Source: an uncultured Eubacteriales bacterium
GTDB taxonomy: Bacteria > Bacillota_A > Clostridia > Christensenellales > Aristaeellaceae
Direction: 5' to 3'
Assembly: GCA_900313545.1 (NCBI GenBank)
Contig: OMRS01000136.1
Span: 1-7,663, forward strand
DNA: 7,663 nt
The position numbers were made by a program, and so were the translations under genes. Below the pieces are notes generated by a model. That model saw nothing but the letters and a program-made list of their open reading frames with translations. It was not told where the DNA came from and did no database searches. Shown piece by piece: positions 1 through 7,663 of this stretch (positions are counted from its first letter, which is position 1; the number at the start of each line of letters is the position of its first letter).

Positions 1-60
1 CGTATCCCTCCCCGGGCCCTCCGGGCCCTCTTTGTTCTCTTCCGGCATGCCGGTCTTCAC
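1..60 (-). CDS. Possible 5' end of a further operon gene, cut by the window edge
   Basis: Downstream of the FkbH-like gene a minus-strand frame is open from a GTG at 60 or an ATG at 48 to the window edge. From the ATG it reads MPEENKEGPEGPGRDT, a charged Gly/Pro-rich N-terminus that matches no family I recognise and does not look like an acyl carrier protein start. The gap to the FkbH stop is about 30 nt. A GAGGG motif lies 4 nt before the GTG and a GGTGA lies 8 nt before the ATG, so both starts are possible. Codons (GAG, GGC, CCG, ACG) resemble those of the neighbouring genes. With only 16-20 codons visible, this could equally be non-coding intergenic DNA. Confidence 0.25.
   Translation of the reverse strand, partial: MKTGMPEENKEGPEGPGRDT
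12..29. repeat. Tandem 9-bp duplication CCGGGCCCT x2
   Basis: CCGGGCCCT occurs twice back to back (12-20 and 21-29). The two internal GGGCCC blocks (14-19, 23-28) can also pair as a 6-bp stem with a 3-nt loop, and a pyrimidine-rich stretch with short T runs follows on the plus strand. If the left-edge frame is coding, the repeat is in frame and gives EGP-EGP. It may be either a coding micro-repeat or a weak plus-strand hairpin; there is no T tract on the minus-strand side. Confidence 0.5.
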
Positions 61-89
61 CGGTCCCTCTTTTTCCTGAAACCCGCCGC

Positions 90-1895
90 TCAGCCGTTTA
101 CGGGTCCGTTCAGGTCCGAGGTGACCTCAATCACCGTCTGCCGGTCGCTGTACGTGCCGGGGACCTGGTATTCCCAGACGGTCCCCCCTCTTTCATCGCT
201 GCCGGCCGGTGCAAAGCCCATCGTCTCATAAAACGACCTGACCATTCCATTCTTGGCCGTCGGATAATACACGCCAAGGATCCTGCGCATTCCCAGTTTC
301 ATGCATTTGCGGATCAGCGTATCCATCATGGCCGATTCCATTTCACGCTTCAGAACGCGGCAGCTCATCAGCCAGAGATCGATCCGGCAGGTATCGCCCT
401 CCAGGTGCCCGATCACCACGGACACGACGCCATTGTCTCCAAAGCAGTCCTCGAGCTTTCCGTACATCGTCAGGTAGCTGCCGTCCGCCGCCAGCGCTTC
501 AATTTCGCTTTGGGTATAGCGCCGCGTCGTCAGGTTAAACTGGTTGCTTTTGTTGGTGAGCTGCGCGATCCTGCCCATGTACATGGGCTCAAAGGGCAGA
601 ATCCTCGCCTTCATCCCCAGGCTCCTCAGATACGACTCGTAATCCGGAAAGCTCTTTTCCTGCATCCGGCGGGCCGCGTTGCTCCTGTACATTTCATTGC
701 GCCTGAAATCATCCTCTGACAGGACGGTGGCCTCAAAAAAGCCGTTGCGGTCAATATTCCTGATGTATTCGCAGACCTCTCCGATTTCCGGTGCCGCAAC
801 CCCCGGCAGCTGCCCCGTCACGATGTGCCGCTCCGCGGGATTGTCATCCACGAAAACCAGACTCTCCGGCAGCAGCCCGAGAGAATCCGCGATGTCCGCA
901 AAGTTGCGGTCCTTGGGATCCCAGTTTGCCCGGATGACGATGAAATCCTCCGGATGCAGCTCGCTGTCAGGATGATTGAGTCCGGCGAGGGCATTGCTTT
1001 CCTCATTCTTGGAGTCGACATTGAGAAGTATTCCCAGATCCCTGTGCGCCTTCAGGTACCGCTGGAATTCGGAATACGCCTGTCCGAGGGAGGTTTCAGG
1101 CCCCAGTTCAATGTTCTCCACGCCGTCATCTCCGATGACGCCTCCCCACAGCGTGTTGTCCAGGTCCAGAACAAGGCCCTTCTTGTTTTTGCCAAGCAGG
1201 GACTTGATGATGTTTGACACGTTGAAGGAGAGATAGGGAATGGCATTCACGTTGACCGCATACTTGTACATATGCCAGTAAAACGGATCTGACCATGCCG
1301 TCAGCCCGTAATCCGCCGACAGGTAATTGACGTCGCAGATGTAAAAATGCTCGTGGTCTGCCGCGTAATCATAAAAGCGCAGATTGAGCCGGGTCAGGAA
1401 ATTCGTTGCCCCGTGCACATCCCAGGCGTCCCGGTTGCCAAGCAGACGGTAATAGGGCATTTCCATGTTGTTCTGGATAATCGGGCAGTGGTAGACCGCC
1501 TCGAGCCGGTCCCACATGGCCCTGAAGCGTTCGTATTCGCTCTCCAGCAGCGCGTTGACCGCATCCTTTGCATCCCTGAGCGAGGGCAGGGCCGTGACGT
1601 TCCTGCAGCAGGTGCAGATATAGATGATATCCGGCGCGAAGGCTTCAAGCTCAGCATTCGGGAACATCGCGTCCTGATAGTACTGGTTGTACTCCGACTC
1701 ATAGAACGAAGGCTCGATTCCCTGGTCCAGCAGGAACAGTTCAAGCATCAGGCGGATGTTGCTCGTCGTGTATCCGCCGAGTATGGCAATCTTCTTGCAA
1801 ACCCTTCCGGTCCCGTCCCCCAGCAGCTGGCGGCGCAGTTTCTTTTTGTGCGAAAGGATGGCCTCCGCATCAAAGGGATATTGAAGTTCTTTCAA
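90..1895 (-). CDS. FkbH-like HAD-IIIC family protein with C-terminal GNAT-like domain
   Basis: 601 aa, cytoplasmic. Residues about 1-230 match the N-terminal domain seen in FkbH/BF1531-type proteins (IAILGGYTTSN near 36-46). The HAD core follows: motif I DLDNTLWGG (D244, D246), the SKN motif at 295-297, WDPKDRN with K328, and the acidic VFVDDNPAER (D350, D351). About 420-575 is a GNAT-like domain (LTNKSNQFNLTTRRY at 446-460, RSFYETMGF at 553-561). Characterised FkbH relatives such as OzmB convert 1,3-bisphosphoglycerate to glyceryl-S-enzyme and pass glyceryl to a carrier protein. Here Asp294 stands where those proteins usually have Cys (CSKN), so the same chemistry is uncertain. The start is a TTG: AGGAGG at 1902-1907 lies 6 nt upstream and no ATG fits better. 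It is the fourth gene of the operon, 51 nt after the MBOAT gene. Family certain, substrate unknown. Confidence 0.93.
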   Translation of the reverse strand: MKELQYPFDAEAILSHKKKLRRQLLGDGTGRVCKKIAILGGYTTSNIRLMLELFLLDQGIEPSFYESEYNQYYQDAMFPNAELEAFAPDIIYICTCCRNVTALPSLRDAKDAVNALLESEYERFRAMWDRLEAVYHCPIIQNNMEMPYYRLLGNRDAWDVHGATNFLTRLNLRFYDYAADHEHFYICDVNYLSADYGLTAWSDPFYWHMYKYAVNVNAIPYLSFNVSNIIKSLLGKNKKGLVLDLDNTLWGGVIGDDGVENIELGPETSLGQAYSEFQRYLKAHRDLGILLNVDSKNEESNALAGLNHPDSELHPEDFIVIRANWDPKDRNFADIADSLGLLPESLVFVDDNPAERHIVTGQLPGVAAPEIGEVCEYIRNIDRNGFFEATVLSEDDFRRNEMYRSNAARRMQEKSFPDYESYLRSLGMKARILPFEPMYMGRIAQLTNKSNQFNLTTRRYTQSEIEALAADGSYLTMYGKLEDCFGDNGVVSVVIGHLEGDTCRIDLWLMSCRVLKREMESAMMDTLIRKCMKLGMRRILGVYYPTAKNGMVRSFYETMGFAPAGSDERGGTVWEYQVPGTYSDRQTVIEVTSDLNGPVNG

Positions 1896-1901
1896 AACAA
1901 G

Positions 1902-1907
1902 CCTCCT
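1902..1907 (-). promoter_or_regulatory. Shine-Dalgarno AGGAGG for the TTG-start FkbH-like gene
   Basis: A full consensus AGGAGG on the minus strand sits 6 nt before the TTG at 1895-1893. This spacing fixes the unusual start. A strong ribosome site paired with a weak start codon suggests moderate translation of the last confirmed operon gene. Confidence 0.8.
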
Positions 1908-1946
1908 GTGGCCCGCATGAGCGCGGCCGCATCCATATGTTTCAGC

Positions 1947-3428
1947 TTAGAACTGTTCGTAAACGAAAAACGTATCGCCAAAGTATCCCAGCAGCAGCGC
2001 AAGGCCTGCACACATCAGCAGGAGCGCAAGTCCCCGCACGGTGCCAAGGTCCTGAACAGGATAGAATCCCTCCGGTTCAGGAAGGCCCTCCCTGTGCTGG
2101 CGGAGAATTGCCATCAGGGTTGCCGCACCCAGCAGCACAAATCCGGCAATGCACCAGAACGACATGAATGAGACGCCGGCGTGGGGCACAAAGAGCGCGC
2201 GGTAAAACCCGGCCGCCTCCCTGACAGTCCCGGTCCTGAAAAAGACCTGAATGAGATTGATCAGGAGGAAATTCGCCAGGATGGAGATCACGCGGCCCGC
2301 TTTTCCCCAGGACGGGGCTCCAGACTTTTTGCGGGCCTGCGCAAACAGCTTCTGGATGACGTAAAAGATGCCGTGCAGCAGACCGAATATGGCGAAATTA
2401 AACCCTACGCCATGCCAGATGCCGCTGATCAGGAAGGTGATGACGGCAGCGGCGGATTCCGGCAGCAGCTTGTGCTTTTTTCTGAATTCCTTCGGCATGC
2501 CCGCCATTTTTCTGCGGAAATGCACCGCCAGCGGATTGAACAGATAGGTCTGCAGCCATGCCGTCAGCGTCATGTGCCATCTGTTCCAGAATTCGCTGAT
2601 GTTGCTGGTGATGAACGGCAGATTGAAGTTCGGCTGCAGCTTGTAGCCGATCATCCGGCTCATGCCGATGGCCATGTCGGAATAGCCCGAAAAGTCAAAA
2701 TACAGCGCCGGCATGTTGGCGATCATGGCCAGAAAGAGCGTTCCGTTGTCGAAGGCGGAAGGCGCAAAGAAGACGCTGTCAAGGAACCTCGCCATATGAT
2801 TGGCCAGCACGGCCTTCTTAAAGAACCCGAACACAAAGATCTGGATGCCCACGGCAAAGGATTCCCGGGTCATCCGCCGCGACTGCCGGAGCTGCGGCAG
2901 AAAGTCATTTCCCCGGACAAGCGGCCCGCACAGAAGCTTTGGGAAATAGGCGATGAGCAGCGCGACATTGATGAGGCTGGTTTCCGCCGGGCATTTTCCC
3001 CAGGAGACATCCATCAGGTAGCTGATCGCCGTGAAGATGTAGAACGAAATGCCCACGGGCGCCGCGATTTGAAGAAGGGTCACCTGGCGGCCCGTCACCG
3101 CCGAAAAGGTACCCAGTAGGAAATTGAAGTACTTGAAATAGCCGAGCAGAAGCACCAGACAGGTGACTAGCAGTCCGGCCGCCAGGGGCTTTCGGGGCTC
3201 CGGGCAGCGCTCAATGAACCGGCCGCCGGCGTAGGTGAGCCCAATGACGCCGGCAGTGCACAGGCAGAATTCCGGACGGTACAGACAGATCACGTAAAAG
3301 CTGGCCGCCAGCAGCAGCAGCTTCTTGATCACCGGGGCTGTCTTTGGCCCCGTCAGATGCTCCGCAAGAAAAATCAGCAGCAGCAGCACCGCGGCAAACG
3401 GATAAAAGCTGAGATCGTTGAAAGACAT
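1947..3428 (-). CDS. MBOAT family membrane O-acyltransferase (AlgI/DltB/PatA-like)
   Basis: Polytopic membrane protein of 493 aa from the preferred start. In numbering from an upstream ATG at 3434 it carries the family landmarks in order: GPLVRGNDFLPQL (170-182), FGFFKKAVLANHMA (202-215), ALYFDFSGYSDMAIG (243-257), the FWNRWHMTL block with H287, and SGIWHGVGFNF with the presumed catalytic H341. It ends in FVYEQF, like the typical AlgI-type tail. Hydrophobic segments run from about residue 12 to 490. The family moves acyl groups from a cytoplasmic donor across the membrane to extracellular acceptors. The ATG at 3434 directly abuts the GGAG motif, whereas the ATG at 3428 is 6 nt away, so translation should begin MSFNDLSF. 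The gene follows the SGNH gene almost without a gap, implying coupling. The acyl donor and acceptor are not deducible. Confidence 0.95.
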   Translation of the reverse strand: MSFNDLSFYPFAAVLLLLIFLAEHLTGPKTAPVIKKLLLLAASFYVICLYRPEFCLCTAGVIGLTYAGGRFIERCPEPRKPLAAGLLVTCLVLLLGYFKYFNFLLGTFSAVTGRQVTLLQIAAPVGISFYIFTAISYLMDVSWGKCPAETSLINVALLIAYFPKLLCGPLVRGNDFLPQLRQSRRMTRESFAVGIQIFVFGFFKKAVLANHMARFLDSVFFAPSAFDNGTLFLAMIANMPALYFDFSGYSDMAIGMSRMIGYKLQPNFNLPFITSNISEFWNRWHMTLTAWLQTYLFNPLAVHFRRKMAGMPKEFRKKHKLLPESAAAVITFLISGIWHGVGFNFAIFGLLHGIFYVIQKLFAQARKKSGAPSWGKAGRVISILANFLLINLIQVFFRTGTVREAAGFYRALFVPHAGVSFMSFWCIAGFVLLGAATLMAILRQHREGLPEPEGFYPVQDLGTVRGLALLLMCAGLALLLGYFGDTFFVYEQF

Positions 3429-3434
3429 GCGCAT

Positions 3435-3440
3435 CTCCTA
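3435..3440 (-). promoter_or_regulatory. Shine-Dalgarno TAGGAG overlapping the SGNH stop codon
   Basis: The minus strand reads TAGGAG, whose first three bases are the stop codon of the SGNH gene. The distance to the ATG at 3428 is 6 nt and to the ATG at 3434 is zero, which selects the downstream start for the MBOAT protein and indicates termination-reinitiation coupling of the two genes. Confidence 0.75.
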
Positions 3441-4454
3441 CAGTTTCTCGATAATCCGGGCAATCTCGTCTGCGAACATGGCATGCCCATCGGTATTGAA
3501 ATGACCGTCGCCTATGGCGGAATTCACAAAGCCGTAGGGCAGTTTATGATTCTGCGCGTATTCCGAGGCAAACCTTCCGCTCATGTCCAGGAACCAGATC
3601 CCGTTTTTTTCGCAAAGGTCCGCAAACTGCCGGATCGTACTGGCATCGCTCCACACCTGCAGGCTCCCGTCCGCATTGATGGATGCCTTGGGATGGTAGG
3701 CGATGATCAGCCGGGTTCCCGCACGCTCCGCAATTCCGTGGAGCCACTGGGTGAACCGGTCAAGGACCTCCTCATCGTTTTTCGGCGCATCCAGGAGAGA
3801 ATCCGAAATGCCGTCCTCATTGTCCCTTCCTGCTCCGGCAGCCGCTTTCTGATAGCTCTCCAGCTGCGAATGCAGCAGGCGCAGGAAATGGTTCTGACGG
3901 GCGAAACCGGAAAGGATGCCCTGTGCGGGAACGGACTCATGAAATGTCCTCCCCCGCATGACCTCCTCAAATTCGTAGTCCGAAAAGATGATGTTGATCG
4001 TCTCGATGACCGCACATCTGGACGGCTGATACTTTTTGAGGGCCGCCTCCAGATTGCTGCAGCAGGACAGCAGGTCATGATTGGACATCCCGATGTTGTA
4101 GACCTTCGCATCCCTGAACCTGTCGGAAAGGCGCATCACCGTGGCGTCCTTCATCGGTACCTGGAGCGCTTCCATGTGCGAGCTGCCCACAATCAGGATA
4201 TCGACCGGATCCCCTTCCCTGTAATCCCCCGGATTGACATATCCCTCATTGTTCATTTTCCCCCAGGCAAATCCCTCCGTGCCCCGGGAATAAAACGCAT
4301 TTGGCGCCCAGCGGTAATTGGTTGCGCCGTCCGGGTCCTCGACCCGCACGGGCAGATGGTAGTACACCTCGCAAAACAGCGACAGTCCCAGAAACGCCAG
4401 GACAGCCGCCGCCGTGATGCGTCCCAGCGCCTTCCAGACGGAGTGCATTGTCAT
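3438..4454 (-). CDS. Membrane-anchored SGNH/GDSL-like protein, MBOAT partner (AlgJ/AlgX/DltD-like role)
   Basis: 338 aa. One hydrophobic segment at about 12-28 with short basic flanks (K8, R12) is a signal anchor, placing the rest outside the cell. SGNH landmarks: ILIVGSSHMEALQV with nucleophile candidate S92 (GSS in place of GDS), VYNIGMSNHD with G122 and N125, and GDGHFNTDGHAMF with D316 and H318 as the remaining triad residues. All triad positions are present, so it is probably active. A 202-230 stretch rich in Ala, Gly and Asp looks like a loop. In alginate, peptidoglycan and teichoic acid systems, such proteins receive the acyl group from an MBOAT and pass it to the polymer, or edit it. 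It starts 4 nt after the VOC stop, with AGGGG about 9 nt upstream of the ATG. A secreted esterase is the alternative; context favours transferase. Confidence 0.88.
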   Translation of the reverse strand: MTMHSVWKALGRITAAAVLAFLGLSLFCEVYYHLPVRVEDPDGATNYRWAPNAFYSRGTEGFAWGKMNNEGYVNPGDYREGDPVDILIVGSSHMEALQVPMKDATVMRLSDRFRDAKVYNIGMSNHDLLSCCSNLEAALKKYQPSRCAVIETINIIFSDYEFEEVMRGRTFHESVPAQGILSGFARQNHFLRLLHSQLESYQKAAAGAGRDNEDGISDSLLDAPKNDEEVLDRFTQWLHGIAERAGTRLIIAYHPKASINADGSLQVWSDASTIRQFADLCEKNGIWFLDMSGRFASEYAQNHKLPYGFVNSAIGDGHFNTDGHAMFADEIARIIEKL

Positions 4455-4458
4455 ATCG

Positions 4459-4908
4459 TCAAACCCCTGCGTCGCGCATCTCCGTTTCGGAGCATGCCGT
4501 CATTTTTTCATGTATTCTGCCGTCATACAGCTCAATCATCCCGATCTTCGGGTGCATCAGGAACACCACCATCCCCCAGCCCATGCACGGGGCCGGCTGG
4601 GGCTCCAGGAACACGGAATACCCCTGCGCCTCAAGGCGGGCTATCTCCCCCTCAAAATCCTCTGCCGTAAAGCACAGATGATACGGTGCATTTTTGTAAT
4701 GCTTCAGGAGGCCGTAGACCGGCGAGAGCTGATCCATCGGGGAAACCAGCTCGATCCGCGTTCCCTCCTTCACGAGAAACGCCATATACGTCCTGCGGAC
4801 CGGATCCTCTGCAGGCGGATGCTCCACCTCATATCCAAGCTCTCTGAACGCGTCCACGCTCGGCGCCATTTCCTTGACAAGATATCCAATATGATGAAAG
4901 TGAAGCAT
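4459..4908 (-). CDS. VOC superfamily metalloenzyme (glyoxalase/methylmalonyl-CoA epimerase-like)
   Basis: 149 aa, cytoplasmic. Two beta-alpha-beta-beta-beta modules are visible: HHIGYLV near the N-terminus with H6, RIELVSP with E53, then YHLCFTAED with H77 and MIELYDG with E126. These form an H/E/H/E set consistent with the metal ligands of glyoxalase I-type proteins, so a divalent metal site is likely intact. Family reactions include isomerisation, epimerisation and thioester chemistry next to a carbonyl; which applies here is not visible. AAGGGG at 4915-4920 lies 6 nt before the ATG. It is the first gene of the operon, behind the promoter at 5081-5109, and ends 4 nt before the SGNH start. 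The position suggests a role in making, epimerising or clearing the acyl donor handled by the FkbH-like protein; this is inference. The C-terminal 15-20 residues are a charged tail. Confidence 0.9.
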   Translation of the reverse strand: MLHFHHIGYLVKEMAPSVDAFRELGYEVEHPPAEDPVRRTYMAFLVKEGTRIELVSPMDQLSPVYGLLKHYKNAPYHLCFTAEDFEGEIARLEAQGYSVFLEPQPAPCMGWGMVVFLMHPKIGMIELYDGRIHEKMTACSETEMRDAGV

Positions 4909-5074
4909 ACCCGTCCCCTTTGCTGTGGCATTCCATCCGGTTCACCGCACATGCGCTGCCCGGGTGAGCAGTCCATATCACGGACCGATCTCCTCCATGC
5001 AGAAAAATCAGGCCTGCGGCTGTTCCCCCATGCTCCCGTCAAGCAGAAAAAGGAGGGAAAACCGCTGCCCCTGC
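4909..5074 (-). other. Long untranslated leader of the VOC-SGNH-MBOAT-FkbH operon
   Basis: Between the predicted transcription start (about 5074) and the VOC start lie roughly 165 nt without a supported gene. The plus-strand text holds two copies of GCAGAAAAA (4999-5007 and 5043-5051); on the transcript these are TTTTTCTGC. Each follows a short GC-rich stretch, giving two weak attenuator-like units, but the stems I can draw are only about 4 bp. I cannot assign it to a known riboswitch or T-box. Confidence 0.4.
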
Positions 5075-5080
5075 AGCCTG

Positions 5081-5109
5081 ATTCTAACATCAACTATTGC
5101 CCGTTTCAA
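5081..5109 (-). promoter_or_regulatory. Strong sigma-A-type promoter with extended -10 for the acylation operon
   Basis: On the minus strand a -35 TTGAAA (5104-5109) and a -10 TAGAAT (5081-5086) are separated by exactly 17 bp. Each hexamer differs from consensus at one base. A TG dinucleotide one base before the -10 makes it an extended -10. Transcription would begin near 5074 and run into the VOC gene at 4908. It lies between the DUF1653 stop and the VOC start, so it divides the two into separate transcription units. It is the only convincing promoter I find in the window. Confidence 0.75.
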
Positions 5110-5176
5110 GGTTCATCTCACCCCCGCGTGCCTGCCGGCGGGGCCGGAAACACCGGATGTGTCACCGAATGCATCG
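5110..5176 (-). other. Intergenic tail after the DUF1653 gene with GC-rich short hairpins
   Basis: Just after the DUF1653 stop the sequence can fold into short GC stems, the best being CCGGC/GCCGG with a GGG loop (5135-5147), plus an alternative CCGG pair at 5144-5156. No T tract follows on the minus strand, so I do not call an intrinsic terminator. Read-through into the promoter region of the next operon is possible. Confidence 0.3.
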
Positions 5177-5638
5177 TCAGTCAACAGGCTCCAGGCATGC
5201 CCCGGCCCGCTCCAGCAAATCCGACAGGCCATCCTGTGACAGAACACCCCGCTTCAGGTCCGGAGGCAGTTCTCCCCGTTCGTCGGCTTCATAGTCCTCC
5301 AGCCACTGCCCGCAGGTGTAGTAGGCGTTCAGCGCGGCAATCCTTCCGGGATCCGGGAAGGCAGACGCCTCCTCGAACAGCCGCTCATAGTGTTCCACGC
5401 GCTCGATCCGGTCCAGGCGGTAAAAGCGGCGGAACGTGACTGCGTTCCTGGTGACCTGCTCATTCCACATCTGTGCCGGACGGACCCAGATGCCGCCCTC
5501 GCCATAGAGGGCGCGGTAAACCACCATCGGGCTTTCATCCTCCGAATGCCTTGCAATGGCGATCACCTCGTAGTTATTCCCCTTGAAGTGACGGTACCGG
5601 CCGGGCGGGATGGTCCGGACCGCTTCCTCGTAAGTCAT
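5177..5638 (-). CDS. DUF1653 protein with DUF4298-like C-terminal half
   Basis: 153 aa from the preferred start, soluble, function unknown. Residues about 13-62 are a DUF1653 core: GRYRHFKGNNYEVIAIARHS, then MVVYRALYG and IWVRPAQMWNE. Residues about 77-145 resemble DUF4298: a helical stretch (RIERVEHYERLFEEA), then YYTCGQWLEDYEADERGELP and DLKRGVLSQDGLSDLLER. Both families are usually described as small separate proteins, so this looks like a fusion. An ATG at 5674 in the same frame would add 12 residues (MTAPSDCRKDQN), but AAAGGA at 5646-5651 lies 7 nt before the ATG at 5638, giving the MTYEEAV start. The protein is rich in aromatic and acidic residues, without signal peptide or membrane segment. 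It is separated from both neighbours by more than 200 bp, so probably single-gene. No promoter is evident upstream, and a large hairpin lies 54 nt before its start. Confidence 0.85.
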   Translation of the reverse strand: MTYEEAVRTIPPGRYRHFKGNNYEVIAIARHSEDESPMVVYRALYGEGGIWVRPAQMWNEQVTRNAVTFRRFYRLDRIERVEHYERLFEEASAFPDPGRIAALNAYYTCGQWLEDYEADERGELPPDLKRGVLSQDGLSDLLERAGACLEPVD

Positions 5639-5645
5639 ATTCTGA

Positions 5646-5651
5646 TCCTTT
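5646..5651 (-). promoter_or_regulatory. Shine-Dalgarno AAAGGA deciding the DUF1653 start
   Basis: AAAGGA lies 7 nt upstream of the ATG at 5638. The alternative in-frame ATG at 5674 has no comparable site, so the shorter protein is preferred. Confidence 0.7.
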
Positions 5652-5692
5652 CTGCAGTCGCTTGGCGCGGTCATCTCTGTTTTCCGGAAACA

Positions 5693-5736
5693 CGGAAGGT
5701 GTCCGGCGATCAGTCATGATTGCCGGACACCTTCCG
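5693..5736 (-). terminator. Large near-perfect hairpin (20-bp stem, 4-nt loop), likely GH3 terminator or attenuator
   Basis: The arms at 5693-5712 and 5717-5736 pair over 20 bp with a single G-T wobble around a GTCA loop; the outer 15 bp are perfect Watson-Crick. Reading on the minus strand, only a short T-containing tail (GTGTTT) follows. It lies about 170 nt after the GH3 stop and 54 nt before the DUF1653 start. It is a good intrinsic terminator by stem strength but poor by U tract. It could instead be a bidirectional terminator, an mRNA 3'-end stabiliser, or an attenuator in the DUF1653 leader. A 10-bp palindrome TTTCCGGAAA (5681-5690) lies next to it. Confidence 0.6.
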
Positions 5737-5907
5737 CACTTTGGGCTCTTTTCAACTCCGGGCGGGCGGAAACGAAGCCTTTCCCGGCCATCTGCCGGGG
5801 AGCCTCACCGCATCATTCGGGTCTTCCCTGCGAAGCCGTCCCGCGGCGCCCGGACAGACTGTCAGACGGCAGGAGCACATTCCCCGGCTCCCGCAGGAGG
5901 AGATCCG
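5737..5907 (-). other. GH3 3' flank, no supported gene
   Basis: About 170 nt between the GH3 stop and the large hairpin. It contains a 6-bp stem (CCCGGC 5783-5788 with GCCGGG 5794-5799, loop CATCT) and a minus-strand open frame of 42 codons from ATG 5880 to TGA 5752. The frame is Arg/Pro/Gly-rich with no recognisable domain, so it is noted under findings and not called a gene. I see no -10/-35 pair for the DUF1653 gene here. Confidence 0.4.
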
Positions 5908-7663
5908 TCACACGCGAATGCTGTGATGTCCGGTCAGTTCCTCCGTCCGCTCATCAGGCTGTCCCAGTCCCACATAAAAGACCGGGGTCCCTTCCGCGCA
6001 GAGATGTCCCTCATCGTCCACCACTCTGGTCCGCGCTTCGGGCACCGCCAGCGTGATCTCCATCTCGCCCTTCGCAGGAATATGAATGCGGCGGAAGGCG
6101 CACAGTCTCGGATTGCGGGGTGCATGCTCCGCGCCTTCATTCTGGATATAGATCTGAAGCACTTCATCCGTATCCCGGTCTCCCTCATTGACCACGGTCG
6201 CCGTGATCAGCAGCCCGTCCCGGCTGGCATAGGAGACGCGGCAGTCGCCATAGGTCAGGCCGTACCCGAAGGGATACAGCGGTTTCTCCTCCAGATAGCG
6301 ATAGGTGCGGCCTTTCATGGAATAGTCCGTGAATGCCGGCATCCGTTCAAGCTGCTCGTTGTGATAGAAGGTCACGGGCAGCTTGCCTGAAGGAGAAACC
6401 TCTCCCAGCAGGATATCCGCCACCGACCGGCCGCCCCGGGCACCGGGATACCAGGTCAGCAGGATCGCATCCGCTTTTTCACCGGCCTCTCCCAGATCGA
6501 TGGAGCTGCCGGCCATCAGGCAGATGACCGTGGGCTTGCCGACAGCCAGCACCGCATCCATCAGCTCCCGCTGTCCCTGAGGCAGGAGCAGGTCGGCCTT
6601 GTCTCCGGAGGCTGCCGCGTTTCCGGTATCGCCTTCTTCTCCCTCCAGGGTCTCATCCAGGCCCACCACCAGCACCACCGCATCGGAATGCTCCGCCACC
6701 GTCACCGCTTCGGAGATCCCGTCAGCGCTCTGGCTCAGGGGCTCGATGCGGTCGCGGAACAGGTCGCTGCCCTGGGCATAGAGCACCCTCGCCTTCCCCT
6801 CCAGAGCATCCTGCAGACCTTCAAGCACGGTGATGTAACGGGAGGACGTCCCGTGATAATTGCCCACCAGCGCCGCGCGGCTGTTGGCATTGGGGCCGAT
6901 CACGCCCAGCGTCCGGACATTCGTCAGCGGCAGGACCCCGTTGTTTTTGAGCAGCACACAGCCCTGTTCCGAAGCCACGCGGGCCTTGTCCAGGTGATCC
7001 CTGCACTCCAGAACCTCATAGGAAATATGATCGTATTCGCTGCCTTCCATCAGGCCCAGCAGGTACCGGCAGGTAAACAGGCGCACCGCCGAACGGCGGA
7101 TCTGCTCCTCGGTGATCATGCCCTTTTCATAGGCGCTCATGATAAAGGTGTAGGTGCATCCGCAGTTCAGGTCGCAGCCCATTTTCAGGGCAAGGGACAC
7201 GGATTCCTCCGGACTGGCCGTCACATGATGGCTAGTGTGGAAATCCCGGATGGCCCAGCAGTCAGAGACCATGTGCCCTTCAAACCGCCATTCCTCCCGA
7301 AGCAGCTTCATGAGGGCCTCGCTGGCACAGCAGGGTTCGCCGTTGGTCCGGTTGTAGGCCCCCATCACGGATTCCACGCCCTCTTCCACCAGTGCCTTGA
7401 ACGCCGGAAGATAGGTTTCCGCCATATCCCGGACGGATGCCCTGGCGTCAAATTCATGCCGGAGCGCCTCAGGTCCTGAATGGACCGCAAAATGCTTGGC
7501 GCAGGCGGCAGACTTCATGGTGGCGCCATGCCCCTGCAGTCCCCGCACATAGCGTACGCCCAGCTCGGAGGTCAGGCAGGGATCCTCACCGTAGGTCTCA
7601 TGGCCTCTTCCCCACCTGGGGTCACGGAAAATATTGACATTGGGCGACCAGAAAGTCAGCCCC
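5908..7663 (-). CDS. Glycoside hydrolase family 3 beta-xylosidase/beta-glucosidase, N-terminus cut by window edge
   Basis: The frame is open to the edge, with 584 residues visible (counting from 7662) and roughly 100 probably missing. Within the visible part: SPNVNIFRDPRWGRGHETYG (6-25) and GEDP, AKHFAVHSG with K56/H57 and H61, SVMGAYNRTNGEPCC, then VSDCWAI with the presumed nucleophile D134. The C-terminal sandwich domain starts near 230 (LLKNNGVLPL) and carries GLDETLEGEEGD (334-345), where the acid/base Glu is expected (E340 or E343). PFGYGLTY leads into a fibronectin type III-like domain, about 475-570. The KHFAVHSGPE plus RHEFDA pattern resembles the xylosidase/arabinosidase branch of GH3, but beta-glucosidase is not excluded. 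A GTG at 7548 is in frame but internal, since conserved GH3 sequence continues upstream. The enzyme would release terminal sugars from plant-type oligosaccharides. It has no evident link with the acylation operon. Confidence 0.95.
   Translation of the reverse strand, partial: GLTFWSPNVNIFRDPRWGRGHETYGEDPCLTSELGVRYVRGLQGHGATMKSAACAKHFAVHSGPEALRHEFDARASVRDMAETYLPAFKALVEEGVESVMGAYNRTNGEPCCASEALMKLLREEWRFEGHMVSDCWAIRDFHTSHHVTASPEESVSLALKMGCDLNCGCTYTFIMSAYEKGMITEEQIRRSAVRLFTCRYLLGLMEGSEYDHISYEVLECRDHLDKARVASEQGCVLLKNNGVLPLTNVRTLGVIGPNANSRAALVGNYHGTSSRYITVLEGLQDALEGKARVLYAQGSDLFRDRIEPLSQSADGISEAVTVAEHSDAVVLVVGLDETLEGEEGDTGNAAASGDKADLLLPQGQRELMDAVLAVGKPTVICLMAGSSIDLGEAGEKADAILLTWYPGARGGRSVADILLGEVSPSGKLPVTFYHNEQLERMPAFTDYSMKGRTYRYLEEKPLYPFGYGLTYGDCRVSYASRDGLLITATVVNEGDRDTDEVLQIYIQNEGAEHAPRNPRLCAFRRIHIPAKGEMEITLAVPEARTRVVDDEGHLCAEGTPVFYVGLGQPDERTEELTGHHSIRV

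Follow-up and report, generated by a model that had tools for sequence, protein, structure and literature searches.

The window analysed here is a stretch of 7,663 nucleotides from an uncultured Eubacteriales bacterium (GenBank assembly GCA_900313545.1, contig OMRS01000136.1, positions 1 to 7,663 of the forward strand). Its minus strand contains four adjacent open reading frames, which were identified, in order of rising coordinate, as genes for an FkbH protein, an MBOAT protein, an SGNH protein and a VOC metalloenzyme. The location and shared strand of these genes had been described in an earlier note made from the sequence alone (the original prediction) and were confirmed, as were the gaps of 4 nt between VOC and SGNH, 9 nt between SGNH and MBOAT (with the preferred MBOAT start at 3428; 3 nt with the start at 3434) and 51 nt between MBOAT and FkbH. 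An identical VOC-SGNH-MBOAT-FkbH order was present in the nearest relative, locus L055, from a metagenome-assembled genome of Christensenella sp. UBA4263 (G001). The closest database relatives, the sequence itself excluded, showed 60% identity for the SGNH protein and 79% for the VOC protein. Because such relatives exist and L055 repeats the four-gene order, the cassette is more than a chance arrangement. Sequence comparisons give good support to a predicted acyl-export system in which FkbH feeds the MBOAT/SGNH pair.

From the 331 FkbH relatives that a scan of genome contigs yielded, the 80 best were retained. These 80, eight further loci found at the order level and the window itself make up the set of 89 loci referred to below. 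The order-level search identified 13 genomes with FkbH, and four weak ones (G046, G168, G218, G275) were left out. Profiles were built from the gene clusters and scanned against all stop-to-stop frames; as some contigs are short, the absences are upper bounds. Within 6 kb of FkbH, MBOAT was found in 70 of the 89 loci, VOC in 31, MaoC in 26 and SDR in 21. The class sample, not chosen by closeness to the window, consisted of 382 Clostridia genomes (the class of G001) searched with TIGR01686. FkbH exceeded the cut-off at 64 places in 51 of these genomes; none of 14 controls gave such a match. Fifty-four places were examined (13 and 41 from two retrievals); the ten left out were eight in open frames of more than 2000 aa (G555, G615, G617, G773), G555:C1:1342258, and a fragment in G678. 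A long FkbH type was defined by a score above 900 bits to the window-family profile, a border set after the scores had been seen and across which they drop from 949 to 477; three short-type FkbH proteins reach a high rank only when the query is itself of the short type. An acyl carrier protein (ACP) and an MBOAT lay near all 21 long-type FkbH genes, with VOC near seven and MaoC near two. Among the 33 other FkbH genes, MBOAT was near four (Fisher 2.4e-11 versus the long type, kinship ignored).

Since ACP and MBOAT were near 21 of 21 long-type genes, homologues scattered without MBOAT, which the original prediction had named as a finding that would count against it, were not seen for this type; several of the contigs behind the 70 of 89 count are short. 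The survey that the prediction had proposed bore out co-occurrence with a carrier protein and MBOAT, and did so for VOC in a minority of loci, whereas no DltA or other AMP ligase was found in the window or among the annotated shared clusters (not every neighbour was scanned).

The FkbH gene (90..1895) encodes 601 aa from a TTG start, with an FkbH_N region, a HAD domain and a C-terminal domain to which a fold search assigned a GNAT fold. The protein scored 246 bits on the curated TIGR01686 model (cut-off 146.65) and is 73% identical to the L055 protein. Members of this family load glyceroyl, derived from 1,3-bisphosphoglycerate, onto an ACP. Within the HAD motif DLDNT (residues 244-248; 1152..1166), D244, D246 and T248 are kept in at least 97% of 81 aligned sequences, and DxDNT is present in all 22 class-sample proteins. 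Cys512 (MSCRVLK; codon 360..362), which going by the FkbH literature we take to be the acyl-carrying cysteine, is kept to the same extent (at least 97% of 81), and all 22 class-sample proteins have SCR.

A profile scan placed a same-strand ACP gene within 4.5 kb of FkbH in 86 of the 89 loci, with no match in L006, L010 and the window itself. The ACP gene lies 31 nt after FkbH in L055, and FkbH is followed by an ACP gene in the same-genus genome G417. As ACP adjoins FkbH in both of these while only 89 nt of the window remain beyond the FkbH stop codon, the ACP of the window is predicted from its relatives; the FkbH-ACP gap was at least 89 nt in 27 of 104 measured relatives. The system would thus have a fifth part that was absent from the earlier description. 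On the minus strand downstream of FkbH, the sequence reads GGGGAGGG (6-13), then ATACG, then the window end. This GGGGAGGG element may serve as the ribosome-binding site for an ACP gene whose start lies immediately beyond the window.

The MBOAT gene (1947..3434) encodes 495 aa from the start at 3434. The protein matched PF03062 (80 bits, cut-off 27, E 2.5e-22) and the DltB structures 6bug and 8jem (E 7e-25 to 8e-25), and it is not a DltB equivalog (TIGR04091, 162.2 bits, cut-off 375). H287 and H341, the latter being the invariant MBOAT histidine that was tested, are kept in at least 97% of 80 MBOATs. The protein terminates in FVYEQF (F490-F495, with Tyr492; 1950..1967), an example of the FXYXXF acyl-shuttle motif. 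This motif is found at the extreme C-terminus in 78 of 80 MBOATs of FkbH loci; in the class sample, it is exact in 11 of 22, with tyrosine at that place in all 22. In the cited part of Anderson et al. (2025; PMC12148441), PatA is described as auto-acetylating the tyrosine of its C-terminal FXYXXF motif with acetyl-CoA as the donor, and DltX as using this motif to carry D-alanine received from a carrier protein. The presence of FXYXXF at the MBOAT end is the strongest sequence evidence for the predicted export of an acyl group by this protein.

The SGNH gene (3438..4454) encodes an acyltransferase-like protein of 338 aa, with an N-terminal helix (residues 3-31) that is likely a membrane anchor, as judged from the model, and an SGNH domain at about residues 81-338. 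Profile searches with this protein gave no family match over cut-off. Its AlphaFold2 model (pLDDT 92.9) matched TesA (E 7.8e-8), PatB (8tlb, E 3.6e-6) and other SGNH enzymes; DltD and AlgX structures were not among the 50 matches listed, which is no evidence against those likenesses. Ser92 (GSSH; codon 4179..4181) is invariant in the alignment and presumably catalytic, as in the SGNH family. The protein therefore shows the features by which MBOAT-SGNH acyltransferases are recognised, namely a gene adjoining that of an MBOAT, an SGNH fold, a candidate catalytic serine and a predicted anchor.

The SGNH type of the window was found in three of 396 order genomes searched. In two of these (L120:9043-11456 and L121:7900-10559), the gene is directly followed by an MBOAT gene, with no FkbH or ACP gene in 18 kb, and for this reason the pair can probably be fed by another donor. 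Three SGNH profiles detected no SGNH gene in 16 of 22 class-sample loci and a weak match in one more. Among those 16, a neighbour in L188 and in L198 is a DHHW/AlgX-type protein, and another GDSL profile matches in L142.

The VOC gene (4459..4908) encodes 149 aa and belongs to a subfamily that includes PDB 2qh0 and 3hdp, its closest structures (E 5.8e-24 for 2qh0). The protein matched PF13669 (54 bits, cut-off 27) and was below the cut-offs for methylmalonyl-CoA epimerase (TIGR03081, 43.1 versus 114.95 bits) and glyoxalase I (TIGR00068, 18 versus 120 bits). Four FkbH-linked VOC relatives scored 38.7-64.5 bits on TIGR03081, all below 114.95. The database cluster to which the window's VOC protein belongs has 10 contigs recorded for it, the longest of 15,563 bases. 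Residues H6, E53, H77 and E126 are kept in 27 aligned VOCs of FkbH loci and align with 2qh0; we take them to be the metal ligands, corresponding to the H, E, H, E set of glyoxalase I.

In a VOC-first sample, 391 class genomes were searched with the 2qh0 stretch and 15 had a VOC match. FkbH and ACP were near the VOC gene in 14 of the 15 neighbourhoods. The exception, L150, lies in a mutase operon and, at 177 bits against a cut-off of 115, is a genuine methylmalonyl-CoA epimerase; it serves in effect as a control. C79 is common to the window protein, 2qh0 and all 14 FkbH-linked VOCs, and D35 is present in 13 of the 14 (L149 has no readable N-terminus); both residues are absent from L150. On the FkbH tree, which is a quick one with long-branch warnings for L112, L115 and L116, VOC presence changes at least 12 times, so the association with FkbH has been a repeated one. 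In L003, L061, L067 and L075, VOC shares a strand with FkbH and ACP, the gene order varying among these loci. The VOC appears to belong to the FkbH pathway but is optional (31 of 89 loci). The four-part export cassette of the original prediction consequently needs amending: the FkbH-fed MBOAT/SGNH system is well supported (21 of 21), but the ACP had been missed and the VOC is not a constant member.

The VOC enzyme probably acts on C2 of the FkbH-loaded acyl-ACP as an epimerase. Glyoxalase I and methylmalonyl-CoA epimerase both shift a proton beside a thioester at a metal, which makes epimerisation the simplest activity for this protein. In the proposed pathway, the HAD domain of FkbH would dephosphorylate 1,3-bisphosphoglycerate from glycolysis, and the GNAT domain would pass glyceroyl, by way of Cys512, to the small ACP encoded beside FkbH; both steps follow from knowledge of the family. 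The VOC would abstract the C2 proton of the acyl-ACP, most likely epimerising D- to L-glyceroyl. By analogy to PatA and DltX, the MBOAT would take the acyl group from the ACP and carry it across the membrane on Tyr492 of FVYEQF. The anchored SGNH protein, in which the fold and the residue are seen, would receive it on Ser92 and esterify a putative surface glycan. Overall, the pathway would be carrier-fed like Dlt, with FkbH in the place of DltA, and would end in a PatA/PatB-like membrane half. The reading we favour, with a modest degree of confidence, is that a three-carbon acyl group made from 1,3-bisphosphoglycerate is attached by the cassette to an extracellular polymer; from the family assignments and the relatives, we infer the identity of the group as glyceroyl and the surface polymer as its target.

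Many of the 80 related loci are surrounded by glycosyltransferases, sugar aminotransferases, and sugar epimerase or sugar-nucleotide genes. In L138, an ACP-FkbH-VOC trio within a pseudaminic acid cluster is flanked by PseI/PseH on one side and PseG/PseC on the other; PseC, PseG, PseH and PseI were all over cut-off, and a PseB-like gene was below it. A FliD-like gene lies near the cluster, its best match being below cut-off. Loci L140, L146 and L149 resemble L138 and have NeuB- and PseG-like genes. A PIG-L deacetylase gene and a formyltransferase-like gene are also located inside the L138 cluster (L138:4235-15416), and may swap an N-acyl group on the sugar. Because the trio also occurs within this cluster near flagellar genes, ACP-FkbH-VOC appears to act as a portable module supplying donors for surface glycans. 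According to the cited part of PMC7099621, cj1302, which encodes an FkbH domain, belongs to the flagellar glycan region of Campylobacter jejuni; di-O-methylglyceric acid is reported on the pseudaminic acid of C. jejuni NCTC 11168 flagellin in that of PMC3958885. We infer, beyond the cited passages, that cj1302 makes this glyceric acid group. D-glyceroyl is reported on the Pragia fontium O-antigen in the cited part of PMC10609480.

A wider proposal is possible, and we offer it tentatively, as one more apt to fail than to hold in full. The VOC proteins, 2qh0 and 3hdp included, might form a new group of acyl-ACP C2 epimerases for FkbH products, and a modular code in Clostridia (FkbH and ACP alone, with VOC, or with MaoC and SDR) might set the three-carbon acyl group (D-glyceroyl, L-glyceroyl or lactoyl) placed on surface polymers through MBOAT-SGNH pairs and, intracellularly, on flagellar nonulosonic acids.

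Several observations weigh against acylation of a surface polymer by the whole cassette. No glycosyltransferase or other glycan gene is beside the cassette in the window or, as inspected by eye, in L055, and the class-sample loci L188, L193, L198 and L203 lie among unrelated-looking genes. The glycan target consequently rests on other relatives. The 89 nt that follow FkbH in the window contain no recognisable ACP start. FkbH is patchily distributed, with 13 of 396 order genomes (E 1e-30) and two of 29 genus genomes having it, and two of the three genomes with the window's SGNH type (L120, L121) pair it with MBOAT and not with FkbH. As for the VOC, 58 of the 89 FkbH loci, some of them on short contigs, gave no match to it within 6 kb. 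Of the 31 loci that have it, 23 carry it on the opposite strand, and the VOC genes beside FkbH look broken in two of 14 (L146:8307-8633 and L149:7975-8375).

The same machinery could export a group other than glyceroyl, if the VOC, or MaoC and SDR elsewhere, were to yield a lactoyl- or pyruvoyl-type three-carbon acyl group. MaoC and SDR occur together in 20 of the 26 MaoC loci (tree sign test, median p 0.004), and in such loci glyceroyl might be dehydrated and reduced to lactoyl, a speculation that rests on co-occurrence. VOC and MaoC are together in only one of the 89 loci (L109; Fisher 4.9e-5), and the sister loci L028 and L040 differ in having MaoC and SDR in the one and VOC in the other. 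However, the exclusion of VOC and MaoC was not significant on the FkbH tree (median p 0.6), and their exclusivity is a hint only. Furthermore, 33 of the 89 loci have neither VOC nor MaoC, and plain glyceroyl is simplest there; dehydration of glyceroyl by a VOC enzyme has, to our knowledge, no precedent. We regard a non-glyceroyl group as unlikely, while giving it some weight. FkbH loci with MaoC and ACP also include six (L020, L024, L027, L046, L057, L080) with a transketolase half gene; the C-terminal half was recognised as cluster 21 (Pfam, L024) and the N-terminal-looking half, by eye, as cluster 25. The acyl group in these loci is perhaps longer or of the glycolyl type.

The VOC might alternatively be an ordinary glyoxalase I for methylglyoxal detoxification, a bystander to a pathway of FkbH, ACP, MBOAT and SGNH. 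The loci with no VOC and the two broken-looking genes fit this, as do the names of 2qh0 and 3hdp, which we take to be one and the same Clostridium acetobutylicum protein and which are called lactoylglutathione lyase or glyoxalase I. A review treats the C. acetobutylicum protein as glyoxalase I, in the part cited here (PMC5412262). Yet FkbH and ACP accompany 14 of the 15 VOC genes of the VOC-first sample, the one exception being a true methylmalonyl-CoA epimerase that lacks the shared C79 and D35, and the window protein reached only 18 of the 120 bits required for glyoxalase I; a detoxifying bystander is, in our estimate, very unlikely. It is also quite unlikely that the cassette serves to produce a small molecule or a lipid, with FkbH acting as a natural-product enzyme and no decoration of a surface polymer. 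FkbH proteins feed polyketides and peptides in the cited parts of PMC7489565 and PMC10143770, the latter of which describes a suomilide cluster with an FkbH domain and an MBOAT, and eight of the 64 FkbH places in the class sample are in the open frames of more than 2000 aa; the missing glycan neighbours in the window and L055 point the same way. Against this, many related loci lie among glycosyltransferase and sugar genes, the SGNH protein has an N-terminal helix and the MBOAT an envelope-type shuttle motif, and no large synthetase frame is present in the window or the L055 stretch, a point qualified by G001, in which other contigs have large frames that include carrier domains.

Acylation of a surface polymer, the preferred reading, was compared with known systems. 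With the Dlt pathway (DltABCDX), the cassette would share a donor on a carrier protein, in addition to the MBOAT, the SGNH protein and the FXYXXF acyl-tyrosine motif. It differs in that FkbH would make the donor and no DltA ligase was seen, and in that the motif is on the MBOAT itself and not on the DltX microprotein. With PatA/PatB peptidoglycan O-acetylation and AlgI-type systems, it shares an MBOAT with a C-terminal FXYXXF and an SGNH partner of the same fold, whereas the donor of PatA is acetyl-CoA and that of the cassette would be an FkbH-charged ACP. In tetronate pathways, glyceryl-ACP is considered the product of FkbH acting with a stand-alone ACP (Mad7/Mad8 and Mad14/Mad12, in the cited part of PMC7489565). 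The window system and these polyketide/tetronate donors have FkbH and a stand-alone ACP in common, but in the window no polyketide synthase was seen, and there is linkage to MBOAT/SGNH and an extra VOC. In C. jejuni, an FkbH gene is likewise in a surface-glycan locus and flagellin carries a glyceric acid derivative, although no MBOAT route is implied there. The VOC shares its fold family and metal-ligand set with methylmalonyl-CoA epimerase and glyoxalase I, from which its scores below both cut-offs and its FkbH-linked neighbourhood set it apart.

Upstream of the VOC gene, the window contains a gene with DUF1653 and DUF4298 domains (5177-5674, minus strand), which nothing ties to the cassette, and a glycoside hydrolase family 3 gene (5908-7662, minus strand), which is interrupted by the window end. 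Three promoter-like matches were found in the window, compared with a mean of 3.0 in shuffled sequence. The one at 5109-5081 was rejected as evidence since the number of sites equals chance, and the single strong promoter of the original prediction was not upheld. No tRNA was identified in a tRNA scan of the window, and no Rfam RNA element reached its gathering threshold. DUF6044 proteins (PF19510) recur in FkbH loci, forming cluster 10 in 18 loci (for example, L056:14725-16497, from Kineothrix alysoides strain KNHs209).

No description of an FkbH-MBOAT surface system was found among the open-licence papers listed, the search extending to neither subscription papers nor preprints; the two papers there that name both FkbH and MBOAT concern aeruginosin-type peptides. 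The FkbH-ACP-fed branch of MBOAT-SGNH acylation thus appears to be recurrent and, as far as that literature shows, undescribed, and its VOC partner may represent a new enzyme activity. If the proposed pathway is correct, a building block derived from glycolysis would join acetyl and D-alanyl among the groups passed by MBOAT-SGNH pairs onto surface polymers. It would also give a testable function to a VOC subfamily with solved structures and a doubtful name, and one donor module would link the decoration of flagellar glycans and of surface polymers in Clostridia.

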